Of a stretch of 32,359 nucleotides of DNA, positions 16,603 to 30,791 are shown in pieces. The DNA is taken from contig MWLD01000074.1 of assembly GCA_002018045.1 (NCBI GenBank), positions 1 to 32,359 of the forward strand, read 5' to 3'. Both the position numbers and the translations under genes were made by a program. The notes beneath the pieces were generated by a model. The model had not been told where the DNA came from. It ran no database searches and saw nothing but the letters and a program-made list of their open reading frames with translations. The stretch's first letter is position 1, and every line of letters starts with the position of its first letter. Source of the stretch: Candidatus Synechococcus spongiarum LMB bulk15M. Lineage in GTDB: Bacteria; Cyanobacteriota; Cyanobacteriia; PCC-6307; Cyanobiaceae.

Positions 16603-17373
16603 TCACCCACCACAGAACACATGTTGGCGGTGCCAAGCCAGATGGGCCTGGTGTTTGGGTGTGAGGGGGATGGGCTCTTGCCAGCGCAGTTCCACCTGGG
16701 CTGCCTGGCTGAGGCGGGGTGAAAACTGTGGCTGGCCCGCGGCATCGAAGCTTACCAAGCCTCGATCAAAGGCGGCATCCCAAAGGGCGGAGAGGAGCAG
16801 GCCGTTGTACACGTCCAGCCTGGTGGCATCGTTCTGGCAGTGAGACCACGGGACGATGTGGGAAGCCCGCAGCAGATCTTGATCGCCGATGCCGGTGAGC
16901 GGGCAGCAGCCCTGCCAGTATTCCATGAGGCTGACGCGAAAAATGTCCTGGCCGATGCGCTGAACCACCAATCGCTCGGCCTCGGTTGTGCGGGGCAGAC
17001 CGCGAATCCGGGCCACGAACTGCTGCAGCGGTGCATCGGGGAGGCTGGCGGAGAGAGCGTAGACCCGTGGCAGCACGCCGTAGAGAGCGCCAAGGCCGGG
17101 GAAGCTGTAACGGGCCAGACCGGGACCGGCCATGGCCGTGGGGACGAGGCCAATCGCCTCAATAACCCCGCCATGATCCAGAGCCAGGAACCAAGGCCCC
17201 TGGTCTCCGGCAGCGGCCAAGGACAGGGTTCCCGGAACGGTGGTGGAGGTGAAAGCGGCCCAGCCCTCGCTTGCTGACGGCATGGTCCGGCGAAAACCAT
17301 GCTGCCATGCGGCCTTCTCGCACTCCTGGCGGACGATGAAGGACTGGGGCGCCTGGACCGTGGGCGTGCTCAT
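16603..17373 (-). CDS. HNH endonuclease-domain protein
   Basis: A 256-residue protein whose C-terminal half fits the HNH_2 type nuclease. It has CCPLTG (156-161), ASHIVPWSHC (170-179) with the metal/catalytic histidine H172, and NGLLLSALWDAAFDRGLVSF (190-209), which carries the later HNH residues. The N-terminal 130 residues may be a sensor or DNA-recognition domain, with no clear assignment. Such proteins are common near restriction and defence genes. It is divergent from the AAA ATPase gene (106-nt spacer) and its stop lies just beyond the rimO relic. The start ATG 17373 gives MSTPTVQAPQSFIVRQE. Confidence 0.85.
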   Translation of the reverse strand: MSTPTVQAPQSFIVRQECEKAAWQHGFRRTMPSASEGWAAFTSTTVPGTLSLAAAGDQGPWFLALDHGGVIEAIGLVPTAMAGPGLARYSFPGLGALYGVLPRVYALSASLPDAPLQQFVARIRGLPRTTEAERLVVQRIGQDIFRVSLMEYWQGCCPLTGIGDQDLLRASHIVPWSHCQNDATRLDVYNGLLLSALWDAAFDRGLVSFDAAGQPQFSPRLSQAAQVELRWQEPIPLTPKHQAHLAWHRQHVFCGG

Positions 17374-17479: not shown

Positions 17480-18628
17480 ATGGGTGGCGAACTGCCACTG
17501 CCAAGCCTCTCGATCTCCGGTTTCCGGGGATTTCCGAGCCTCTCAATCCCCCAACTGGGCCGCGTGACCTTGTTGACGGGGCGCAATGGGGTGGGCAAAA
17601 CAACGGTGCTGGATGCCATACGCATTTATGCTGCGACCACATATGACACCCCCTTTCCCTTGGCCACTCTGCTGGCGGAAAGGCTGAGACAACAGGACGA
17701 GTGGAGAGACGGTCTGGACGAGGATGGGGATAAGGTGCTCATTGCGGACTACAATACTCTGTTCCATGGCCGCTTCTTAACCCCTGGCCAGCCCATCTCC
17801 ATTGGTCCAGAGAATGACGAGAATAATGTCAAGCTTGAGGTGTATCAGGAAGGAACCTTGCCTAAGGAACAGGAAGAAAAACTAATTCTCTCACTCTCCC
17901 GCATAGAAGATACAGACATTCCACCTCTCTTGGTTACCTTTAAGAACCGTCCCAAGTATCTTTTGCCTTGGATGAGTAGCGAATCGAACATGAGGTTCCT
18001 AAATAGATATTTTTCTAGAATGGTGGATGACAATAGTGAGGAATCACCAGAGAAGCTTAACTGTGTATACATCGGCCCTAACTTGCCAAGCAACGAAGCC
18101 CTGGTTGAATTTATTGATAAAGTCGCTTTAACTGAAGAAGATTATAGACCGAAAGAGGCTCTAGAGTTGATTCTGGACTATAAAATCTATGGGATTGCCG
18201 TTGTTGGCAGAGATAAAAAGTCTCGGCCTCGGGTTATGGTGAAGTTATCGAAGCAAGAACCCCGTGTTCCTCTGAAAAGGCTGGGTGATGGGGTGATGCG
18301 CCTTTTTGGGATTGCTGCAGCTTTGGTAAAGAGCCGCAATGGCCTCCTTCTCATCGATGAAGTGGAAAATGGAATTCACTATTCTGTTCATGAAAAACTC
18401 TGGACGATGATTCTCAAAGCTGCCGGTGAACATAACATCCAGGTAGTGGCAACGACTCATAGCTGGGACACAATTGCTGGTTTTGCACGGGCTATGCAGA
18501 ATCCAAAGATAAAGAGTTTTAATTCTACTCTTGTAAGAATTGAAGGGCAAGGAGAAAATGCTCAAGCTGTCGAATACAGTAAAGAAGAAATAAAGACAGC
18601 ATCTCAACACAACATTGAAGTGAGGTAG
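17480..18628 (+). CDS. AAA/ABC-type ATPase of an ATPase-TOPRIM pair
   Basis: A 382-residue OLD/AAA_21-like ATPase. It has Walker A GRNGVGKTT (34-42), an ABC-like signature RLGDGVMRLFG (267-277), Walker B NGLLLIDEVENG (287-298; D293, E294) and the H-loop TTHS (325-328). The middle (about 50-260) holds the family-variable insert. The 3' two thirds are notably AT-rich compared with flanking genes, a sign of transfer. The stop is 4 nt before the TOPRIM gene, so the two form an operon. ATPase plus TOPRIM effector pairs (PARIS AriA/AriB, OLD, Gabija-like) are anti-phage systems; this looks like a relative, not a firm member. Confidence 0.88.
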   Translation: MGGELPLPSLSISGFRGFPSLSIPQLGRVTLLTGRNGVGKTTVLDAIRIYAATTYDTPFPLATLLAERLRQQDEWRDGLDEDGDKVLIADYNTLFHGRFLTPGQPISIGPENDENNVKLEVYQEGTLPKEQEEKLILSLSRIEDTDIPPLLVTFKNRPKYLLPWMSSESNMRFLNRYFSRMVDDNSEESPEKLNCVYIGPNLPSNEALVEFIDKVALTEEDYRPKEALELILDYKIYGIAVVGRDKKSRPRVMVKLSKQEPRVPLKRLGDGVMRLFGIAAALVKSRNGLLLIDEVENGIHYSVHEKLWTMILKAAGEHNIQVVATTHSWDTIAGFARAMQNPKIKSFNSTLVRIEGQGENAQAVEYSKEEIKTASQHNIEVR

Positions 18629-18632
18629 AGTG

Positions 18633-19415
18633 ATGAGTAATTTGCAAAACCGCATTTTATTGGTGGAAGGTGATGACGACAAGCATTTCGTCAAGAATTT
18701 CGTCGAGAATTTCTGCCGCAGAAGGTTATCTGAGAAATTAGCTTGCAAATTTGCGGACGAAGATGAAGAAAATAATAGTAATAATGATAACAGCAGGTCG
18801 GTACTTTATATTGATAGTCGCAGCAGGAAAAAAGGGGGCATTAAAAATATGATTGATGACATACCACTCAAGATCAAGGAAGCCGGAAGAGAGGCTGTAG
18901 GAATTCTAGCAGATGCTAACGGATACAGTCTTGACAGTTGTAAACATCCATGGCAAAAGATAAAAACTAAATTAGAGGAAGTTTTGACTTTAGAGGAACA
19001 CCTCCCAGAAAGACCTTGCCAAGAAGGACTTATTCGTCGTAATATAACACCCAAACAGAAACCGAAATCAACTCTTTGTATTGGCGTCTGGTTGATGCCA
19101 GACAATCAATCCAAGGGTGAACTTGAAAACTTTTTTGCAAGGCTAATTCATGAGAACAACCCAACGTGGGCACGCGCTAATGAATACATCAACCAATGTA
19201 TCGAATCAATGGAACAGGCAGACAATCAACGGGGTGGTTTTGATACGGGAAAGCCGTACAAGGTCTCGAAATCAAAAGTCTACGCATGGCTGGCGACAAG
19301 AAAGAAACCTGGCAAAATGGCCGCGGCCATTTCTGAAGGTCACGGCCTTGACTTTGATTCTGAACTGGCCCAACGCTTTGCTCGATGGCTTGAAAAACTG
19401 TTCTGTGATTTCTAA
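18633..19415 (+). CDS. TOPRIM (DUF3226-like) partner protein
   Basis: A 260-residue protein with a TOPRIM-type start ILLVEGDDDKHFV (8-20; E12 is the conserved acidic residue), a second acidic motif GILADANGYS (90-99; D94) and the DUF3226-like motif WLMPDNQSKGELENFFA (153-169). TOPRIM domains of this kind act as nucleases or tRNA-cleaving effectors when paired with an ATPase. ATG 18633 follows the ATPase stop by 4 nt; the overlapping upstream GTG (18630) is an alternative. The gene is AT-rich like its partner. It is convergent with the HEPN-like gene, 26 nt apart. The family call rests on motif pattern and is fairly sure; the exact activity is inferred. Confidence 0.82.
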   Translation: MSNLQNRILLVEGDDDKHFVKNFVENFCRRRLSEKLACKFADEDEENNSNNDNSRSVLYIDSRSRKKGGIKNMIDDIPLKIKEAGREAVGILADANGYSLDSCKHPWQKIKTKLEEVLTLEEHLPERPCQEGLIRRNITPKQKPKSTLCIGVWLMPDNQSKGELENFFARLIHENNPTWARANEYINQCIESMEQADNQRGGFDTGKPYKVSKSKVYAWLATRKKPGKMAAAISEGHGLDFDSELAQRFARWLEKLFCDF

Positions 19416-20368: not shown

Positions 20369-20650
20369 TCAGCTTGCATCCATATGCTCCCCGCTCGCCT
20401 TTTCTGGCCTTCCCATCCCACTTGCCGTCTCCTTTTCGTTGATTGGTTTCTCGACATACTTTTTGACTTCTTTTTCTGTCTCATCAATCAAACGTTCGAC
20501 ATGATTTAGATAGCCCTCAACATGAGTCTTATTTAACTGTAAATTATCACTTCTCTGACCATGTGCAATTTTATGACGAATCTCAATATAATTATCAAGC
20601 TTGCTTGCTGCTTGTTCATCACTCATACGTTGCCATTTCCAACAACTAGA
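20369..20650 (-). pseudogene. 3' remnant of a HEPN (RiboL-PSP type) gene
   Basis: The segment encodes CWKWQRMSDEQAASKLDNYI followed by EIRHKIAHGQRS. This is the C-terminal half of HEPN_RiboL-PSP-like proteins, including the R-x4-H element (RHKIAH). Upstream, homology stops abruptly where the frame enters codons of the truncated methyltransferase in another phase (about 20650-20665). The N-terminal half is therefore lost and the two genes are fused at a deletion junction. A short product could start at ATG 20626 (85 codons), but it would lack part of the fold. Confidence 0.7.
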
Positions 20651-22568
20651 AAGTTTTGGTGGGCACCGTACGGCTGTGGACTGCCGGGGCGGCGCCGGTT
20701 TTCGGCAGCAGGAAGGCGGCCACGTAGAGATCCGCTGCGGCCCGGGCACGCTGGAAATCCGGAGTTTGGCGCAGATCCCGGAAGCGGGCAGCCTTGGTCT
20801 GAATTTGCCCCACCGTGTCCTCCCCCAGGTTGCGCAAGCGGGAAAACGCCAGCGCCAAGGGCTTCAGAGCTGGAACGATGGCGGCGCCGCTGCCTAGATC
20901 CAGTTCAATCTGGCCCCTCTTTGCGGCGCGGTTGGCTCTTTTGTAGTGGTTGGCGGCGGCTTCGTCGTCGCCGATCAGGGTCTTGTAGGCGGCGTCGGGA
21001 ACGCCGTCTGTCAACACGCCCAGGTCAACCAGGCCCAGCAGGGCGTCGCCGCAGCGAATTTGCCCATCCAGAAAACCCAGGGGGAGGCCGGGGGTCACCG
21101 TCTCGATCCAGAGGGCCACACGGGTGAGCTCCACAGCCATGGGGTTCTTGTCCACCCCGTGGAGACAGCAACGGGCCACGTCCCGCAGGGCAGGGCGGAA
21201 GTCCGCCAACCCTGGGGCGCCGTCGGCGCGGATGCGGGCCAGGCGGGTGGCCAGGCGACGGGCGGCGGCCAGCAGAAAGTGGCCCGAGCCGCAGGCCGGG
21301 TCCAGGATGGAGAGCTTGAGGAGCGCCGCGGCGGGGTCGGCGGCTTCCGCTTCGGTGCTGTCCAGAACGGGGTCAAGGGCGCTGTCCAGCAACGTCTGAA
21401 CCAAGCTGTCCGGGGTGTAGTAGGAGCCCGTGGTTTTGCGCTGGTTGCCTCTCCGTTCGCTGGCCTCGGCGGCAAACACCAGGCGGCGGCCGTCGGCCGC
21501 CGGTTGGGGTTGGAGTTCCAGAAGGGATTCATACACCGAGCCCAGTTCTTCGGTTTCCATGGCCCGCCAGTTGACCGGCACCCGGCCGGCCCGCTCCGGT
21601 AGCCACCCCAGATGCCAGAGGACCGCCATGAAGGCGTTGTTGGGTAGGCGGGCCGCTTCCAGGTTCGGCAACTGGTGGGGGGCGAAGAGGCCGCCAAGGG
21701 CGGGCAGGGCCAAGCGCGCCTCCCCATCGGCCAGGCCACGAAACACCACTTTCATGCCCTCATAGCGGTCGTGGTGCTTGTCCCACGTGGCGCGGCGTTG
21801 GCACTTGCGGCGCAGTGTGGTGAGGCTGTAGCCCTCCCCGTAAAGCTGGCGGGCGGCGGCTGTGCTGGAGACGGGGTGGAGCAAATTGCGGTCCTCCGCC
21901 ACCATCAGGAAGATGAGCCGATACACCAAGCGCAGGAGTTCATTGAACCAGTCCGCCAGGGGGATGTGGCCGGATTTCAACTGGCTGGCCAGATCGTGGT
22001 TGGCGCTCAGGAATCCGGAACCCAACACCTTGAGGGCCTCCCGCACCTGGCATTGTCCCGCAGCAGCCGCATCCGGCAGCCGTTGGTCACCAGGCCCCAG
22101 AGGGCATGGTCATGGTGGTTGAGCCAATCCTGGAGGGCAAAGGCGGGGGAGCAGGACCGGATCCGTGGAGAGGGTGGGGCTGCGGCGCTCCAACTCCTCC
22201 CCTGGCGGCGCCACCACCACGGGAACCCGATCCCCGGCAAGAAAGGACACAACCCCATCGGCTGGGGCAAGATCATGGAAGCCGAAGGTCTCAGCCAGAA
22301 ACTCCCGGACAAAGCGCTGCGTGGTGGCCAGGGAAGACTGTTGGCGCCGGGCAAACTCATCCCAGTGGGACTGGCCCACCCGGAAAGCCGTGGAGATCTC
22401 CTCGCGAATCGTCAGCCCTTTGCGGACGCCGTAGCTGGTGCGGGTGGCGGTGTCGTCTTCGGGGGCGCCAATCCGGGCCAACATGGCGGGGGCGATGAGG
22501 TTGCCCTCCAGGCTGAGGGAGGGCCAGACCCCCATCTCGGTGGCAGGTTGACGGGCCACGGCGCTCAA
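20646..22568 (-). pseudogene. N6-adenine DNA methyltransferase (Eco57I/PglX-like), broken
   Basis: The N-terminal piece (from TTG 22568; SHWDEFARRQQSSLATTQRF) reads to about 22150. A frame change follows, giving HALWGLVTNGCRMRLLRDNA. At about 22050 a second change with loss of perhaps 80 residues leads to the main frame: REALKVLGSGFLSANHDLAS, LVYRLIFLMVAEDRNLLHP, TTGSYYTPDSLVQTLL and SAM motif I ILDPACGSGHFLLAAA. The frame continues through IRCGDALLG and GVPDAAYKTLIGDDEAA and stops after ADLYVAAFLLPKTG, where it is fused to the HEPN remnant. In this family motif IV (NPPW/Y) follows that helix, so the catalytic motif and the whole target-recognition part are gone. It is overlapped (TTGA) by the coiled-coil gene and lies in the helicase operon. 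Confidence 0.85.
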
Positions 22569-22996
22569 GCCTCGGGCGTGGGCAGGCGTTCCAAAATCCG
22601 ATCCAGCTTCTCGTTCAAGGCCCTGTTGTCCGCTTTGACTTCTGCTTTGAAGTCTTGCAGGTCTTGCCGTTGCCTGGCCTCACTGGCGGCGATGGCTTTG
22701 CTCAGCCTGGCCTCCGTGGCGGTGACGTCCATCTTGACCGCTTCAATCTTCTCGGTCAGCCTGGTCTCCGTGGCGATAATCTCGTCACTGAGCCTGGTCT
22801 CCACGTCTCTGATATCACCCTTCAGAGACTGGAAACCCGCCACGCCAACACTGACCAGGGCAATCACCAGCGCACTGATGATGGCCCCCGCTACCACAGG
22901 CTCCAACCATTGACGCCACCAAGGGATCCGTGCTGGCGAATCCTGGTCTTCAGACTTGGTGATGGGCGGGCTGGAGGTCACCGCGCCATGGTTCAT
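22565..22996 (-). CDS. membrane-anchored coiled-coil protein
   Basis: A 143-residue product: a short cytoplasmic N terminus, one membrane helix (VVAGAIISALVIALVSVGVA, about 34-53), then a long coiled coil with heptad-like repeats (DVETRLSDEIIATETRLTEK, TEARLSKAIAASEARQ) up to the end. It sits between the DrmD-like gene and the methyltransferase, and its stop overlaps the methyltransferase start codon as TTGA. Similar coiled coils are often mere scaffolds. A role as membrane tether for the defence complex is speculation. Confidence 0.75.
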   Translation of the reverse strand: MNHGAVTSSPPITKSEDQDSPARIPWWRQWLEPVVAGAIISALVIALVSVGVAGFQSLKGDIRDVETRLSDEIIATETRLTEKIEAVKMDVTATEARLSKAIAASEARQRQDLQDFKAEVKADNRALNEKLDRILERLPTPEA

Positions 22997-23036
22997 GGAT
23001 CACCAGACCAGTCTAAGATCATGGTTTGGCCACGAC

Positions 23037-25805
23037 TTACACCACACTGGGCATGAGAACAAAGAGGCCAATCACGTCGGGCGGATCAACAGCCTCCACG
23101 CTGACGCGGGAGGCTGAAGAGGCGGCGGCCCGCAGTCGGGCATGATCCTGGCCCAGTTCAGCGGCGCGGGCGCAGACAAAGTTCGCCAACGGGCCTCTCA
23201 GTAGAGCAGGCAGGCGCGCCTTGGCGGTCTTGATGAATCGATTCCGCGCCGCGGGCGCAATGTTGGTTGCTGCCGGCGTGTTCAGTAATTTCCGGGCCTC
23301 TTCCCCTGTGGCCATGATTGTGCTGTCTTGGGTGGCCGCCAATGCTGCTTCCTCCGCCAGAAGGAGCCGCTCGCGCCGGGCATGGGTGGTGAGCTGATGG
23401 CGGATCCGCAACAGTAGAAGGCATGTCAGCCGCTCAACCGCCGGAGTAGCCCAGGCGCCAACCCGGCCAATGCCCAGTCCAGGTAGAAACTCCGGGTCCA
23501 GGGAAGCTTCCACCAGAGCTTCCGCCGTGGTGGTGACCAGCCCGTGGGTCCGGGTCAGTCGCTGGACGCCAGGTGGCGCCGGCTCGTCGTCGGCCAGCCG
23601 CACCGATCCCGCCAGATTCCGCTGCTGGAGCCGTTCCCGCAACCCGGCCTCCAACCCCCCCACATGGGCCAACACCACAGGTCCTCTGGGTTCCAACGGC
23701 ACGCCAAAGCAGGCCATGGCACGCTGAAGAAAAATCCGGGCATCGTCAGGGGACCCCAGAAGCGGACGCACCTTGTCCCATTCGGGGGCCACGTCCTGGG
23801 GCTTCATGGCGTTCTGGGCAAAACGGGTGCGGGATTTCTTTTCGTTCTCCGCCACATCCCGCCAGCGGGTCTCCATGGCTGTGGCGCCCTCGCCAAGGCC
23901 CAGATCAAGGGCCAACTGAGGGGTGGCGCCCCGCTGCAACATCATGGAGGCCAGCAGGGCATCGGTGACGGGACCCCTTTCCTGGGGAAGGGGCACGGTG
24001 ACGCCCGTGGCTTGGCGGATGTCCTTGGCCTTGCGCAGGATCACCTCCAGCACGGCGCCGTCAACAGCGCTGTCCGGGGAGAACATCATGATGGAGCGCA
24101 CCAGCGGCGACGGCTGCCCGAAACGATCCACCCGGCCTTCCCTCTGCTGGTGGCGGGTGGGATTCCAGCACAGATCGTAGTGAACCACTGTGTCAAAGAG
24201 TTGCTGAAGGTTGATGCCTTCTGAAAGACAGTCGGTGGCCACCAGAAGCCGCTGGCCGGCCGTCTTGTCCCCCTCCCCGTCAGCCATCTCCGCTACCTGA
24301 TCCCGCCGCTCGTCAGGGGTCAGAACACCGGTGACGGCCACAATGGTGAGTTGGGGAAAGGCGTGCCGGAGCTGATCTTTCACATACTCTGCCGTGGCAA
24401 TGTACCGGCAGAACACAACGGGATTGGCCCCTTGACGAAGAAGGGGCGCAAGGGCCCTGATGAGGGCCGCCAGCTTGGGATCAGGTTGATCCAGCAAATC
24501 CTCAGCCTGGCTCACCAGGGCACGGAGCGCCGGATCAGCAGCAAAGGTGGTGCCGGGCTCCAGGTCAACGGCGTCTTCGTCCTCTCCGTCTTCGTCGTAG
24601 ATTTGGGGCTCCAGGCGCTCACCCTGGTTCAAGGCCCGGTTGCGCAGTGCGCTAAGAGCGGCGCGAGGGGATGAACCAACGCAGCGCATCAGTGCAAGGG
24701 TGCCCCAAAACGCCAGCCGCCGCTCCCGCTGGCCGGTTCCGGCTTGCCCCACCACGGCAAGGCAGTAATCCAACACCGCCTCTTGAAAGGCCATGTGGGC
24801 TGGCGATAGGGGATAGGGATCCTCGGTGGTCTCGTGTTTTGGGAAGGCGCGGGCCTCATGCCAGTCCCCTGTGACAAGATCCACCCGCCGCCGTTGCACA
24901 AAATGCCGAGCCAGCCGCTGCCGATAGCGAAGGTCGTCAAAATCCATCTCTGCGAAGGATGAATCAACGAGGGACAACAGGCGCCCAAACGCCGCCTCGT
25001 CTCCGGAATGGGGGGTTGCCGTCAGCAGAATCATGCGGCGATCAGAATCCTCGGCTAGGCCAGAAAGGAGGGCAAACCGCTGTTGCTTGCCTCTGTGGGT
25101 GCCCACGCAGGCATGGGCCTCGTCCACAATCACAAAGTCCGGGCAGGCTCTGGCAAAGGTGTCACGGCGTTTCTCGGCCTTGATGTAGTCCAGGCTCACC
25201 ACTGTGGCGGGGAAGGCGTCAAAGAGGGTCTGGGCCATGGGCAGCCCTCGTTCCAGACGCGCCGCCGTTCCAGCGGTGACGGCAACCGCCGTGATCCCGA
25301 AACGCACTTTCAGCTCGTCGACCCATTGCTCTACCAAGTGGGGAGGGCAGAGCACAGAGAAGGCATCCACCTCGCCCCGGTCCTTCAGCTCCCGCAGGAT
25401 CAGCCCGGCCTCGATGGTCTTGCCAATGCCCACATCATCGGCAATCAGGAGGCGGGGTACCGGCAGCCGCAGGGCCATGAGCAGGGGCACCAACTGATAG
25501 GTGCGTGGCTCAAAGGTAAGCTGGGCCGCAGAGCGGAATGGGCCGGCGCCGCGGCGGAGGGCAAGCCGCAACGCATCCGCCAGGAGCGCAGCCTTGGCCT
25601 GGACTGCGATCCCGGCATCCGCGGGCAAATCAAAGCGGGCCGGCTCAACAGGGCTCAGTTCAAGGGACGGATCCAGCAGCACCACATCGTCTTCACTGCC
25701 TGAGAGGGGGCGCAGCGCCAGGATGTCATTCCCACGAGACGGTAGGGTCACCCACTCGCGGCCCCGGGCCCGCACCAGATCGCCAGGGGCAAAATTCATG
25801 CTCAT
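23037..25805 (-). CDS. SNF2-type helicase, DISARM DrmD-like
   Basis: A 922-residue SF2 ATPase closely resembling DrmD, the class 1 DISARM helicase: FAPGDLVRARGREWVTLPS, GAGPFRSAAQLTFEPRTYQL, Walker A IADDVGIGKTIEAGLI, CPPHLVEQW, DEAH in VIVDEAHACVG, LTATPHSGDEAAFGRLLSL. The helicase C-terminal domain has LLVATDCLSEGINLQQLFD and LCWNPTRHQQREGRVDRFGQ. The C terminus (DVIGLFVLMP) looks complete. The start ATG 25805 follows the upstream helicase stop (25823-25825); a TTG at 25826 would overlap that stop as TTGA. All ATPase motifs are intact. In DISARM it works with a methylase, DrmA, DrmB and DrmC; only some counterparts exist here. Confidence 0.9.
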   Translation of the reverse strand: MSMNFAPGDLVRARGREWVTLPSRGNDILALRPLSGSEDDVVLLDPSLELSPVEPARFDLPADAGIAVQAKAALLADALRLALRRGAGPFRSAAQLTFEPRTYQLVPLLMALRLPVPRLLIADDVGIGKTIEAGLILRELKDRGEVDAFSVLCPPHLVEQWVDELKVRFGITAVAVTAGTAARLERGLPMAQTLFDAFPATVVSLDYIKAEKRRDTFARACPDFVIVDEAHACVGTHRGKQQRFALLSGLAEDSDRRMILLTATPHSGDEAAFGRLLSLVDSSFAEMDFDDLRYRQRLARHFVQRRRVDLVTGDWHEARAFPKHETTEDPYPLSPAHMAFQEAVLDYCLAVVGQAGTGQRERRLAFWGTLALMRCVGSSPRAALSALRNRALNQGERLEPQIYDEDGEDEDAVDLEPGTTFAADPALRALVSQAEDLLDQPDPKLAALIRALAPLLRQGANPVVFCRYIATAEYVKDQLRHAFPQLTIVAVTGVLTPDERRDQVAEMADGEGDKTAGQRLLVATDCLSEGINLQQLFDTVVHYDLCWNPTRHQQREGRVDRFGQPSPLVRSIMMFSPDSAVDGAVLEVILRKAKDIRQATGVTVPLPQERGPVTDALLASMMLQRGATPQLALDLGLGEGATAMETRWRDVAENEKKSRTRFAQNAMKPQDVAPEWDKVRPLLGSPDDARIFLQRAMACFGVPLEPRGPVVLAHVGGLEAGLRERLQQRNLAGSVRLADDEPAPPGVQRLTRTHGLVTTTAEALVEASLDPEFLPGLGIGRVGAWATPAVERLTCLLLLRIRHQLTTHARRERLLLAEEAALAATQDSTIMATGEEARKLLNTPAATNIAPAARNRFIKTAKARLPALLRGPLANFVCARAAELGQDHARLRAAASSASRVSVEAVDPPDVIGLFVLMPSVV

Positions 25806-25822
25806 CCGTTCCAATCTTGAAC

Positions 25823-28800
25823 TCAAGTCTGGAACATGGCCGTCAACTCACTGGGTGGTCCTTCGGCGGTGGCGTCTGGCAGGGCAAACAGCATCCAGCC
25901 CTTGGCATCACCCATCTCCCGCGCGGCGTCCGTCACTGGATCAAGGGCAGCCGCAATAAAATGGCTGCGCCATGCAAAGGGGAACACTTGGCCCGCCATG
26001 GTGATGGGTGCAGAATCCGGCGTGGGGATGCCGGCTGCACGGAACAGGGCCGGCCATGGGCCGGTCTTCTGGTTACCGCTTGACAGGGTGGCATTCAGCA
26101 CAACTTTACCACGGGCCAGATCAACCAGCAACTGCTTGACCTGGTCACTGGTGCGGTGAATCAACTCATGGTCCGGTTGATTGAAGTAAGACAGAAGGCA
26201 GCGATAGCAGCCCCGCACACAGGCGTCCTCCCGTTGATCAACGAGAAGGGATGCATCACCAGCGGCAATGGCGTCGTTCACCTTGTCGAAGTGCATCAAG
26301 CCCAGAGCCTCGCGGGCCACACGGCCCAGAGCCCGGGGCTCCTCCACCAGCCGGCTCAATACACCCGCGCCGCCTTCAGTGGCCTCATAGGCGAGGATGG
26401 AGCGGCAGCGGTTGCGCTCGGGCAGTGGTTCGCTCAGCACTTCTCCTTCCTCTAACTGGAAGGCAACTGCAATGCCGCGAACCAGAGCATGTTGGACCGT
26501 TGCCATCGTCTCGGGCAAATAGATCTCCGGCTCGTGGAAGCGTAGCAGCAGCGCATTCTTCCGCTCCCGCACGATGGGAACAATGCGCACCGGCCGGCTC
26601 ACTTCGGGCGATTCCTCCTCGGTCTCCTCCACGTCCGACTTCACCCAGTAGCCGCTTTGGGGGTCAATATTGAAACCAAAAACAGTCTGGTTTTTGCGGC
26701 GTTTCAGACCCTTATTAATGCGGCTGATTTCAGCACTGTTGGCATATTGCAGGGTCAGGATTGTGGTTCTCCCACAGTGAAACTCAGCCTCTGTGATCTG
26801 CAGGCGATTATCTCGTCTGGGCCAGGAAAACACTGTCTGGATATCAAATCCCTGGCGAATACGCTCTTCATCATTGGCGGTGATCCGTGTGGCCGGTGCG
26901 GCTTCCACATTGTCGATTCGCAGCGTCCGCTGCACAGACGCCTCGTTGACCATGGATTGATCGCAGGCGTGGCAGCGCTCTACTTCGCTTTCATGGCAGG
27001 CGCCACAATTGGAGCAGATGAAGATATCATTGGTGGCCAGCTCGGTGCCGTCACTGGTGCGCACTTCCGGTGGAAGTTTTGCCTTGATCACCCGATAGGC
27101 ACGGCCTTCGTGATAAATCAAACTGCGGGGACCAAATTCTGAAATGGCCAGGAAACGGGCCCGTTGCAGAAAGGAACCAGTATTTCTCTCGCCGGGAATA
27201 AAGGCATAAAGGGGTAGGCGGGGAAAGTTATAGCCGGGGAGAAAACCTTCGGTGGCAAGGTATCGGTAGGAATAGAAATCCGAACCGTTGGAGGCTTTGC
27301 CTTCCTCAAGCAGGGCAATCTGTTTGCTGGCCTGGGCCTGGGCGGCTTGGGTCATCCTACGCTCCTTGCGAGCAAGGCCAGGGGTCTCGGAGCGGGCGTT
27401 GGCCTCTTGCAGTTGGGCGCGGGCAGCTTTGTAGAGCTGCCGCCATCTGTCGAAGGCACAATCAAACGTCTCTGGCGCTCCTTTGGCAATCATCAGCACA
27501 AAATCGTCAGGATTGGTCAGCCAGGGGGGCCTCACATCAACGGAGTCCAGAATTTGATCCAGAACCTGCCTCATCGGAGCCTGGGCAGCATCCACCAATC
27601 TCTCCTGGTGAATGACATCCAGAATCTCCCGCTTCAGCGGAAACTTATCCTTCTCCTTCTCAAGATCCAAGACCTGGGGGATATCCGGCGAGAGGGCAAG
27701 TTTCGCCTGCGCCAGCCAGACGGCATGGAGATGGGACCGCACCAACTCTTCATTGGTGATGTCCAGCGCTGGAGGACGCACCACCCCCGCAACCATGGCG
27801 TTACGGCGCTTGAAAAAGTATTGGTCATGGGGTGACTGGGCCGCGCAATAGGCTATAATCACTGCCGCCTGACCTGAACGGCCAGCCCGCCCTGCCCGCT
27901 GGGCATAGTTGGCCGGGGTGGGGGGGACATTGCGCAAATAGACGGTATTCAACGCCGAAATATCTACGCCCAATTCCATGGTAGGAGAACAGAATAGAGC
28001 GGGAAGAAACTGGTCCGGTTCTCCAGCGGCTTTGATGTCTGCACGGTTCTCGCCAATTTTCTTGCAATCATCCTCTTCATAGCGAAAACGCCATTCCCGC
28101 CACTCCCGCTGTTTCTGGGCAACCTGTGCTGTGTGTTCACGGCTTTCCAGGCCCCAATAGATGCTGTGGCCATGGTTCAGATCATTGGCTATGGCATGGT
28201 AGAGGTCATGGAAATACCTGTTCCCTCGCGGTTGCCCTTGACGCACTGCTTCGCCCGGAACCAATTTGACCGCAGCAGGGGAGAGATGCCAGCCATGCAG
28301 GTCGTCCTCAATCTCGCAGCGTGACACCAGCCCTTCCCGGGCCATCAACTCCATTAGCCCTGCCATAACCTGTGAGTAGTCGTCCCGGCTGAGCGTCATG
28401 CCAGGAATTTTCCTGATGGCTCGGCCAATACGAGAGTTGTGGCCTGCACGGATCACCGCCTGTTCCTGGCGACGGCTTGGCTTCAGGATCAATGCATTGC
28501 GGTGTTGCAACGTTTCCTGCTGATCCATGGCCCAGGGAGCGCGGAGGAGACTTCTTGATTGCTGGGCAACAGGATCAAGAATCGTCGGGTCCAGCGCCTC
28601 CGTGTTGACTGCAAGGCCCTCAAGCAAGGCAGTAAGGATGATCTGGAGGACTTTTTTGCGTTGCTCTCGGTCAACCGCCACCTGTTGGGGCAGGATGGCC
28701 CCCAGGCTTTCCACATCATCGGCCACGTCCTCAAGACCGACAAACCGGAAGTCCACCAATTCGAGCACCACCAGACTCGGGTTTGTGTACCGCCAGCCGC

Positions 28801-30791
28801 GGCGCAGATCTGTCCAGACGCGGTGAGCCAAGACCTTGGCCAGGGCCCGCTGAGCCTGCTCCCGCACAACAGCGCCGGCTTCCGGTTCCAGCATCCAGTG
28901 GATACGGGCAGCCCTGTTGACTGCTGTGAAGCCCAGCGCTTTCACCAAGCCCAGGCCAAATTCGTCCTCGCTGATACCGTCATTGCCAGCACCCAGAACA
29001 GCCCGCAACGTGGCGCCCCGCAGGAGGCTGACAAAGAGAAAGTCATTAAAGTGCCCCGACTGGAGCGCTGCATCCTGCCGGTTGTCCGTGAAGCCCAGAA
29101 TCTTCCGCTTCTCCGGCAAGATGCCACTGGTTTCGCTATTCATCCACTCCAGTGCAGTGGATACCAACAGGGTGGTGGCCGAACTTCGACCTTCGCCGGA
29201 TAGCCCCGTCAGCTTGCTGCGCTCCCACGTGGCGGCATGGGGCTGGTCAAGACAACAGGGGCAGAAACGAAAACGACCCGGAATGAACCAAAAGCTGGAA
29301 CCAGACCCACTACAGCGGCCGTCGGGCCCCACAGTCAGTTGCTGGGGAACGTGATTCCTCCGATTGGCGCGAAGCCGTTCGCTACCGTTACGCTCTTCGC
29401 GCCAGTCTTCCGGGAATGCTTCCAGCTCACCCGTGAACAGGTAGTCAGTGTCCCCCTGTTGTCTCGTTGGCGTGAGGTATCCGGCAATGTTGTCCTGATC
29501 CTGATCATCAGTTGGGGTGTCATCAATATTTCGGGGCAGAAATATCTCCTTGCCTTTGATTGTGGTTCGGGTGACAACATGGGCTTCATGGCCACATTTC
29601 CTGCAGAAACGGGTTGGGTATAGACGACGTCCCGGTTTCTCCGGGTCTTCAAGTTGACCATCGAACAGCACCCGGCGTGACTCTGTGAGGGTTGTGTAGA
29701 CCTCTCCCGCACCGGAGATGAACCGGTGCAGTTTGAATGCCAGAAAAGCGCCGTCCCCTGTCCCGCCCCGCCAGCGGGTGGGTGCGGAGCTTCTCGTCGG
29801 TGAGGCCATGGGACAACTCGGCCCGCAGCACATTCGCCAGTTTCGGGCGAATGTGCTGAAGCTGGAGCCCATCGTCCGTGGTGCGCTGTAGGGATTCGTC
29901 AATCACGGCATCCGGCCCCATGGGCATTCCAAAGAGCCGTGCGGCAACGGCAGCCACCGCCTGGGCTCTGCTGCCGCTTTCTTCCGCATTGGCCATGGTG
30001 GCCGAGGTGCCAATACAGATAGGCGCCTTGTCTGGCGTGCATCGGTTCCGAAGCCGACGGACAAGGATGGCCACATCCGCTCCCTGGCGCCCCCGATAGG
30101 TGTGGAACTCATCAAGGACAATGAATTGCACCCCCCGGGTCTGGTCGATGACTTTGGTATCCAGTTCGTCCTGCCGGGTCAGCAGCAGTTCGGCCATCAT
30201 GAAGTTGGTCAGCAGAATATCGGGCGGCTCCTTGGCAATGCCCTGGCGCTCCTCCTGGCTTTCCTGGCCCGTGTAGCGCCGCACGACGGGCTTCAGAGCC
30301 TCCGGGAGGCCAGACTGGGCAATGAATTTCTCAATCTCGTTGATCTGGCTGTTGGCAAGGGCATTCATGGGGTAGACAATGACGGCCCGCGTCCCCCGTG
30401 GCTGATGGGCCTTACGGGCACGGACGATGGCGTCCACAATGGGGACGAAGAAGCAGAGGGACTTGCCCGACCCGGTTCCTGTGGTCACCACATAGCTCTT
30501 TCCCGCCCTGGCTTTGGCGATGGACTCAGCTTGGTGCTGATACAGAGGACCGGGCAAGCGGAAAATTTTGCCTGTTGCCTCGTCAAGCGTCCCATCCCCC
30601 ACAAGACGGTCCACAGTGGGGCCAGATCGGAAGCGCGGGTTCAGGGACAACAACGCATCTGGCCAAAAGCGCTTGTTGACGTACTGACGGTTAATCTCTT
30701 CACGCAGGTCATCGGCCCGAATGGTGCTGAACGACCGGGAGAATTGTTCATAGGAATTGATGATGTGCCGGTCAAACGCAAATGCCCTCAT
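25823..30791 (-). CDS. large DEAD/DEAH helicase with DUF1998 (DruE-like), one frameshift
   Basis: Together about 1,656 codons, resembling the helicase-DUF1998 proteins of Druantia (DruE) and combining what DISARM splits into DrmA and DrmB. The N-terminal part (from ATG 30791, MRAFAFDRHIINSYEQF) has Walker A TTGTGSGKSLCFF (G105-S111), VYPMNALANSQINEIEKF, GQESQEERQ, the DEFH box VLDEFHTYRGRQGADVA (227-230) and GTSATMAN. At about 29765-29775, in a G-rich run, the frame shifts by one base; the N-terminal frame would end at 29649. The other frame continues with FCRKCGHEAH, helicase C motifs FCSPTMELGVDISALN and YAQRAGRAGRSGQ, a zinc-like CSNCGAC/CHAC region, and the DUF1998 end YEATEGGAGVLSRLVE with CVRGCYRCLLSYFNQ. 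The alternative start ATG 30842 is in frame. The shift may be real decay or a base error. Confidence 0.88.

Follow-up and report, generated by a model that had tools for sequence, protein, structure and literature searches.

We analysed a 32,359-nucleotide stretch of DNA (the window) from Candidatus Synechococcus spongiarum LMB bulk15M, a sponge-dwelling cyanobacterium, which carries on its minus strand an operon with genes resembling parts of known anti-phage systems. Judged by its sequence, this operon is a decaying copy of ARMADA Type I. ARMADA (disARM-related Antiviral Defense Array; Bell et al., bioRxiv 15 Sept 2025, PMC12458937) combines a Druantia-like YprA helicase with a pair of DISARM-like proteins, namely a helicase resembling BrxHII/RapA and a methylase resembling PglX, and the usual gene order of Type I is YprA, BrxHII-like, PglX-like (PMC12458937). 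Since this published order and these components are those of the window operon, the hybrid Druantia/DISARM operon proposed in a first-pass annotation is real, but it is not the unrecognised system type considered there, because it has already been described (PMC12458937). We regard it as very likely that the operon is a decayed ARMADA I of alphaproteobacterial origin, in which a methylase would have marked self DNA and helicases would have loaded on foreign DNA, and that it belongs to a sub-branch in which a separate HNH endonuclease probably replaces a dead Vsr-type nuclease. The relevant features are as follows.

29649..30791 (minus): first (5') half of the gene for the YprA/DruE-like helicase (ArmC-like); RecA1 carrying Walker A and DEFH motifs; Pfam DEAD 5.7e-28, PADLOC DruE 2.3e-42
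25823..29902 (minus): 3' half of YprA; RecA2, zinc motifs, OB/MZB (DUF1998) and degenerate Vsr-type nuclease domain; Pfam Helicase_C 9.6e-8, MZB 4.5e-7
Codons 25826-26212 (minus): degenerate C-terminal Vsr-type nuclease domain of YprA; catalytic residues missing
23037..25826 (minus): intact SNF2/RapA-BrxHII-DrmD-like helicase (ArmA-like); PADLOC DpdE (PDLC02853) 1.6e-191, DrmD 6.9e-73; E. coli ArmA 3.9e-42
22565..22996 (minus): membrane-anchored coiled coil, 143 aa; open frame with one hydrophobic stretch; genus-specific multicopy family
22110..22568 (minus): N-terminal piece of the PglX/DrmMI-like methyltransferase (ArmB-like); 79-83% identity with sister-genome methylase residues 1-136; in another frame than the remainder
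20646..22046 (minus): middle piece of the methyltransferase; S-adenosylmethionine (SAM) motif DPACGSG; PADLOC DrmMI 3.6e-56, Pfam N6_Mtase 3e-7
20369..20640 (minus): fragment of a HEPN-domain gene; Pfam RiboL-PSP-HEPN 8.7e-9; longer homologues in L036 and L048
16603..17373 (minus): intact, co-directional HNH (H-N-D) endonuclease gene; Pfam HNH_2 (PF13391) 8.8e-12; proposed fourth component of the sub-branch

The three core proteins of the window match ArmC, ArmA and ArmB of the ARMADA II locus of E. coli ATCC 8739. The best-scoring PADLOC models of YprA were DruE models, so that the large protein is not an ordinary DrmA or DrmB, and in the sister symbiont L048 and in L038 Pfam found DEAD, Helicase_C and MZB/DUF1998 combined in one YprA open reading frame (ORF). 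The window protein carries several CxxC motifs. A BrxA-like domain, a beta-barrel zinc module and MarR-like insertions are reported traits of ARMADA I YprA (PMC12458937). No close YprA relative was found in phage genome records. The designation of the second gene as a DrmD-like helicase held in part: DrmD does match, though only partially, and it is outranked by DpdE, which covers the full length of the protein. Intact three-gene copies were found in L048 and in alphaproteobacteria, as the first-pass annotation had anticipated, and the order YprA-SNF2-methylase was found again in dozens of genomes. Thus the co-occurrence of the genes is neither unique to the window nor due to chance. The first-pass annotation was correct in proposing a distinct defence type of several genes, among them those for a DruE-like helicase, a DrmD-like helicase and an adenine methylase.

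Loss of the Vsr-type motif and linkage to an HNH gene

The C-terminal Vsr-type domain of ARMADA I YprA has been called predicted active (PMC12458937). In our alignment of intact-type ARMADA I YprA proteins the Vsr residues E, D (in PDF) and DG-P-H (in IDGPHH) were invariant or almost invariant. The window and its alphaproteobacterial relatives have lost every one of these residues, though the domain still aligns by profile. A structure model of the intact C-terminus had a match in MrfA and a weak one in the nuclease domain of I-Bth0305I (E 0.19, probability 0.93). The degenerate C-terminus was modelled with a mean pLDDT (predicted local distance difference test) of 69, with values of 82-92 in the last ~80 residues.

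No drmC or Druantia genes lay just outside the operon among the proteins scanned, but the first-pass annotation had missed a likely component there, the HNH gene at 16603-17373. This gene is open and constrained, with a ratio of nonsynonymous to synonymous substitution rates (dN/dS) of about 0.2 against L048. Its catalytic residues H172, N190, D199 and D203 were invariant in 16 sequences and have the H-N-D, not the H-N-H, form.

The state of the Vsr motif and the presence of the HNH gene were tallied over those ARMADA I loci whose available sequence extends 2.5 kb or more beyond the 3' end of the methylase; a group with ADF...IDGPHH (L196-L205) was scored as Vsr-intact. Loss of the Vsr motif together with an HNH gene was found in 26 loci, window included (25 scored directly plus L148, where HNH lies across the numbering origin of the plasmid). 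An intact motif without HNH was found in 21 loci, namely 18 in the YprA set and three gammaproteobacterial loci fetched later, which kept Vsr and had no HNH, matching the prediction. None of the surveyed loci combined an intact Vsr motif with HNH, and three had lost the motif without having HNH (L145, L061 and L065); in L145 the methylase is followed by an IS21 element. Fisher's test on 25/3/0/18 gave p of about 5e-10, a value that does not test independent events, as the loci are related.

At the ARMADA I loci that have it, the HNH gene always lies on the same strand as, and 3' of, the methylase, and in five of them (L038, L046, L139, L142 and L195) the two genes share 4 bp at the methylase stop. 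This linkage was seen in alpha- and gammaproteobacteria, Acidithiobacillus, Hydrogenimonas and cyanobacteria. Among 385 alphaproteobacterial genomes, 7 had the SNF2 gene at E<1e-120 and 16 had an HNH match at 1e-10. All four strong HNH matches (E<1e-45) fell within ARMADA I loci; a full SNF2 gene accompanies three of them, and the fourth adjoins a fragment of SNF2 with 85% identity. On plasmids, most records with near-full-length HNH matches were ARMADA plasmids.

On this evidence we lean towards a cis/trans module swap: in a broad sub-branch of ARMADA I the nuclease fused to YprA would have lost its activity, and a separate HNH (H-N-D) endonuclease would have taken over its function. L148 groups with an intact-Vsr protein in the YprA tree (97 SH-aLRT), so that here the motif may have been lost, with HNH present, in an event of its own. 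The main text of the published ARMADA report (PMC12458937) does not mention HNH, and we found no paper linking HNH to ARMADA or DISARM-like operons; relative to that main text the exchange looks new.

Several observations weigh against this interpretation. Besides the three loci without Vsr motif and HNH, many HNH genes are separated from the methylase by 0.8-3.8 kb of DNA that contains variable genes. The YprA tree, with the E. coli outgroup left uncounted, holds few events (three Vsr changes, two HNH changes and two independent pairs), and it conflicts with the SNF2 tree on the placement of L149/L199. The model of the degenerate C-terminus had no significant PDB match. Four plasmid records with close HNH matches had no ARMADA within 13 kb, which indicates that the HNH gene can stand alone. 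By these comparisons HNH is strongly associated with the ARMADA I sub-branch, not exclusive to it. It is conceivable, though we think it rather unlikely, that the operon is an ARMADA I remnant and HNH a linked passenger of a defence island, not the functional replacement of Vsr. The variable cargo between methylase and HNH, the close homologues without ARMADA and the occurrence of the HNH domain in unrelated loci would fit such a passenger, whereas its constant orientation and 3' position, the 4-bp overlaps, its absence alongside every intact Vsr motif and its retention across such distant groups argue for the module swap.

The surroundings of these genes differed among loci. In the window, an AAA_15/AbiL-like ATPase and a DUF3226 protein (17480-19415, plus strand) match the PADLOC candidate system PDC-M38A/B, and this pair separates the ARMADA remnant from its HNH gene; it is also present in L036 and L048. 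The stretch between methylase and HNH carries an LmuB-like SMC protein in L140 (tested), annotated SMC genes in L141 and L144, a weakly UvrD/GajB-like protein in L143, a HEC-03B-like ATPase in L147 and a 262-aa protein without assigned identity in L044 and L133. The planctomycetes L061 and L065 lost the Vsr motif of YprA independently; in L061 an ORF between YprA and SNF2 has, by eye, a UvrD-like end. In the alphaproteobacterium L193 (9788-10945, minus strand) an HNH gene adjoins an SNF2 fragment in another decayed ARMADA I locus. A close HNH homologue with a TIR-domain gene directly after it, with no ARMADA nearby, was observed on a plasmid of Rhizobium sp. SU303 (L214, 12980-14889).

Decay of the window copy

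The minus-strand ORFs are tightly packed and the large helicase gene starts with an ATG at 30791, both as first annotated. The count of four genes stood less well: the ORFs are present, but the large helicase is split in two and the methylase is broken too. We treat the helicase halves as one gene because the homologue in sister genomes is a single ORF of 1719-1744 aa. The 5' half is 90% identical to the intact L024/L025 protein and the 3' half 86% to the L048 YprA. Relative to the sister genomes ~173 bp are deleted, which in the alignment to L048 corresponds to 58 codons from the stretch that links RecA1 to the zinc region; the 5' half is frameshifted at ~29769, and homology of the 3' half to intact relatives begins at ~29770.

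The methylase has a deletion of ~0.2 kb at 22049/22050 compared with the sister genomes and is truncated near 20657-20688, upstream of the NPPW motif, with its C-terminal target-recognition half deleted. Compared with L048, more than 2 kb are lost, from about residue 698 of the methylase through the middle of the downstream HEPN gene, and this deletion has joined the HEPN fragment to the truncated methylase. The intact homologue (L048:12894-16955, 1353 aa) has both NPPW and SAM motifs, whereas the window gene has kept the SAM-binding motif and lost NPPW by truncation. The NPPW motif is essential for ARMADA II defence (PMC12458937).

The window operon is thus a pseudogenised remnant, with YprA frameshifted and the methylase deleted and truncated. 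Since the methylase is without its catalytic half and YprA is interrupted, we infer that this copy no longer defends. The decay may be recent, because the SNF2 gene is open and under purifying constraint (dN/dS 0.21 against L048), the HNH gene is similarly constrained and the 3' half of YprA still has a dN/dS of 0.17. The source genome is fragmented (1.5 Mb, 74% complete; the window comes from a contig of 42 kb), and many frameshifts occur in the sister assembly L049, which could suggest that the breaks are errors of metagenome assembly and that the system is intact in the organism. We consider this improbable, because the breaks are not single-base indels but cleanly joined block deletions, which measure ~173 bp, ~0.2 kb and >2 kb.

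Origin of the operon and the membrane coiled coil

The host falls in the Candidatus Synechococcus spongiarum clade, and within the genus the operon is carried by Candidatus Synechococcus spongiarum and by other metagenome-assembled genomes, with SNF2 proteins 84-88% identical to that of the window. SNF2 identity to the window was 68-76% in alphaproteobacteria, in contrast to about 40-46% in other cyanobacteria. In both the SNF2 and the YprA tree the symbiont sequences were nested inside an alphaproteobacterial group. The simplest reading of this nesting is horizontal acquisition, in which the Ca. Synechococcus spongiarum lineage would have obtained the operon from an alphaproteobacterial pool. 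The bin name of one alphaproteobacterial relative, L043 (CAR1_bin_3), has a prefix resembling that of the sister cyanobacterium CAR3_bin_5; to judge by these names, both may come from one sampling series.

The coiled coil had been annotated as a member of the operon. Its ORF had no match in the PADLOC or Pfam scans. By protein search, the family has 2-28 matches in each of nine same-genus genomes and one marginal match in 30 genomes outside the genus. The copies (window 22565-22996 and L106-L125) have in common an N-terminal hydrophobic segment, coiled-coil repeats of variable length and a conserved C-terminus. At the same point of the operon a short in-frame remnant, MTSETRLGKAIATSEARQLPAPKA, is present in four sister genomes, and at the junctions examined in the alphaproteobacterial operons there was no insert. 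The coiled coil is therefore not a constant gene of the conserved neighbourhoods and was rejected as one. From this distribution we conclude that it is not part of ARMADA and was gained by, or remained behind in, the symbiont lineage.

It is accordingly very improbable that the window holds a new, still working four-gene system with the membrane-anchored coiled coil as a genuine component. The operon-like spacing, in which the coiled coil overlaps or abuts its neighbours, and the purifying constraint on the SNF2 and HNH genes would suit such a system; the absence of the coiled coil from the alphaproteobacterial operons, its mere remnant in the sisters, the dispersed, genus-confined family and the broken YprA and methylase genes contradict it.

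Proposed mechanism and comparison with known systems

In the intact system the PglX/type-IIG-like adenine methylase probably marks self DNA, and the RapA/SNF2 translocase and the YprA helicase probably load onto DNA structures that are unmarked or specific to phage and unwind them. After this loading on foreign DNA, a nuclease would make the cut. In this sub-branch the cleavage is probably supplied by the stand-alone HNH at the 3' end of the operon, the fused Vsr domain having lost its catalytic residues; this role is suggested by the reciprocal Vsr/HNH pattern and the gene adjacency. The related DruE is reported to be a helicase-nuclease effector acting on intermediates that contain single-stranded DNA (PMC13192584). 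Phage protection has been demonstrated for ARMADA II alone (PMC12458937). Natural systems that have lost the fused nuclease and have a different one in trans make the question of which ARMADA part cuts DNA directly testable.

The operon shares with DISARM class 1 a DrmD-like helicase and a DrmMI-like adenine methylase, but its DUF1998 is fused to the helicase and not encoded by a separate drmB, and the PLD nuclease DrmC is missing. As the first-pass annotation had observed, neither a drmA/drmB pair nor drmC was among the proteins scanned, and none was annotated beside the relatives. The idea that the window holds an incomplete system of DISARM class 1 or of Dpd can be given hardly any weight: the DpdE label of the top SNF2 model and the DrmMI match of the methylase point that way, but helicase and DUF1998 form one protein scoring as DruE, drmC is absent from intact relatives too, and no Dpd genes are annotated beside relatives, for example at the Paracoccus, Sphingomonas and Deinococcus loci. 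Membership in either system was rejected on these grounds. PADLOC-DB 2023 names the genes DruE, DpdE/DrmD and DrmMI, so that ARMADA loci resemble incomplete Druantia, Dpd and DISARM systems, which calls for caution by annotators.

With Druantia Type III (DruE/DruH; PMC13192584) the operon has in common a YprA helicase that contains DUF1998/MZB plus a nuclease region at its C-terminus, and DruE as top PADLOC family. Unlike that system (PMC13192584), it lacks DruH and PLD domains and has an SNF2 helicase and a methylase. Druantia membership was rejected, as DruH, druA-D and druM/F/G had no matches among the proteins scanned; the first-pass annotation had likewise seen no druA-D, druH or druM. 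ARMADA Type II (E. coli NCTC 12900 / ATCC 8739) has three core proteins homologous to those of the window, ArmC, ArmA and ArmB. Its order ArmA-ArmB-ArmC-ArmD differs, however, and ArmD (UvrD/GajB-like + RelE) had no match among the window proteins compared, so that membership in Type II was rejected as well.

The closest agreement is with ARMADA Type I, in the order YprA, BrxHII/RapA-like helicase, PglX-like methylase, in the DruE-like YprA with a C-terminal domain past DUF1998 and in the lack of a GajB-like gene. In contrast to Type I, the fused Vsr nuclease of the window branch is without catalytic residues and an HNH gene lies 3' of the methylase; the window copy is, in addition, frameshifted, truncated and interrupted by the coiled-coil insertion. 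Because the Vsr catalytic residues are absent, we describe the window branch as a variant and not as a standard member of ARMADA I.

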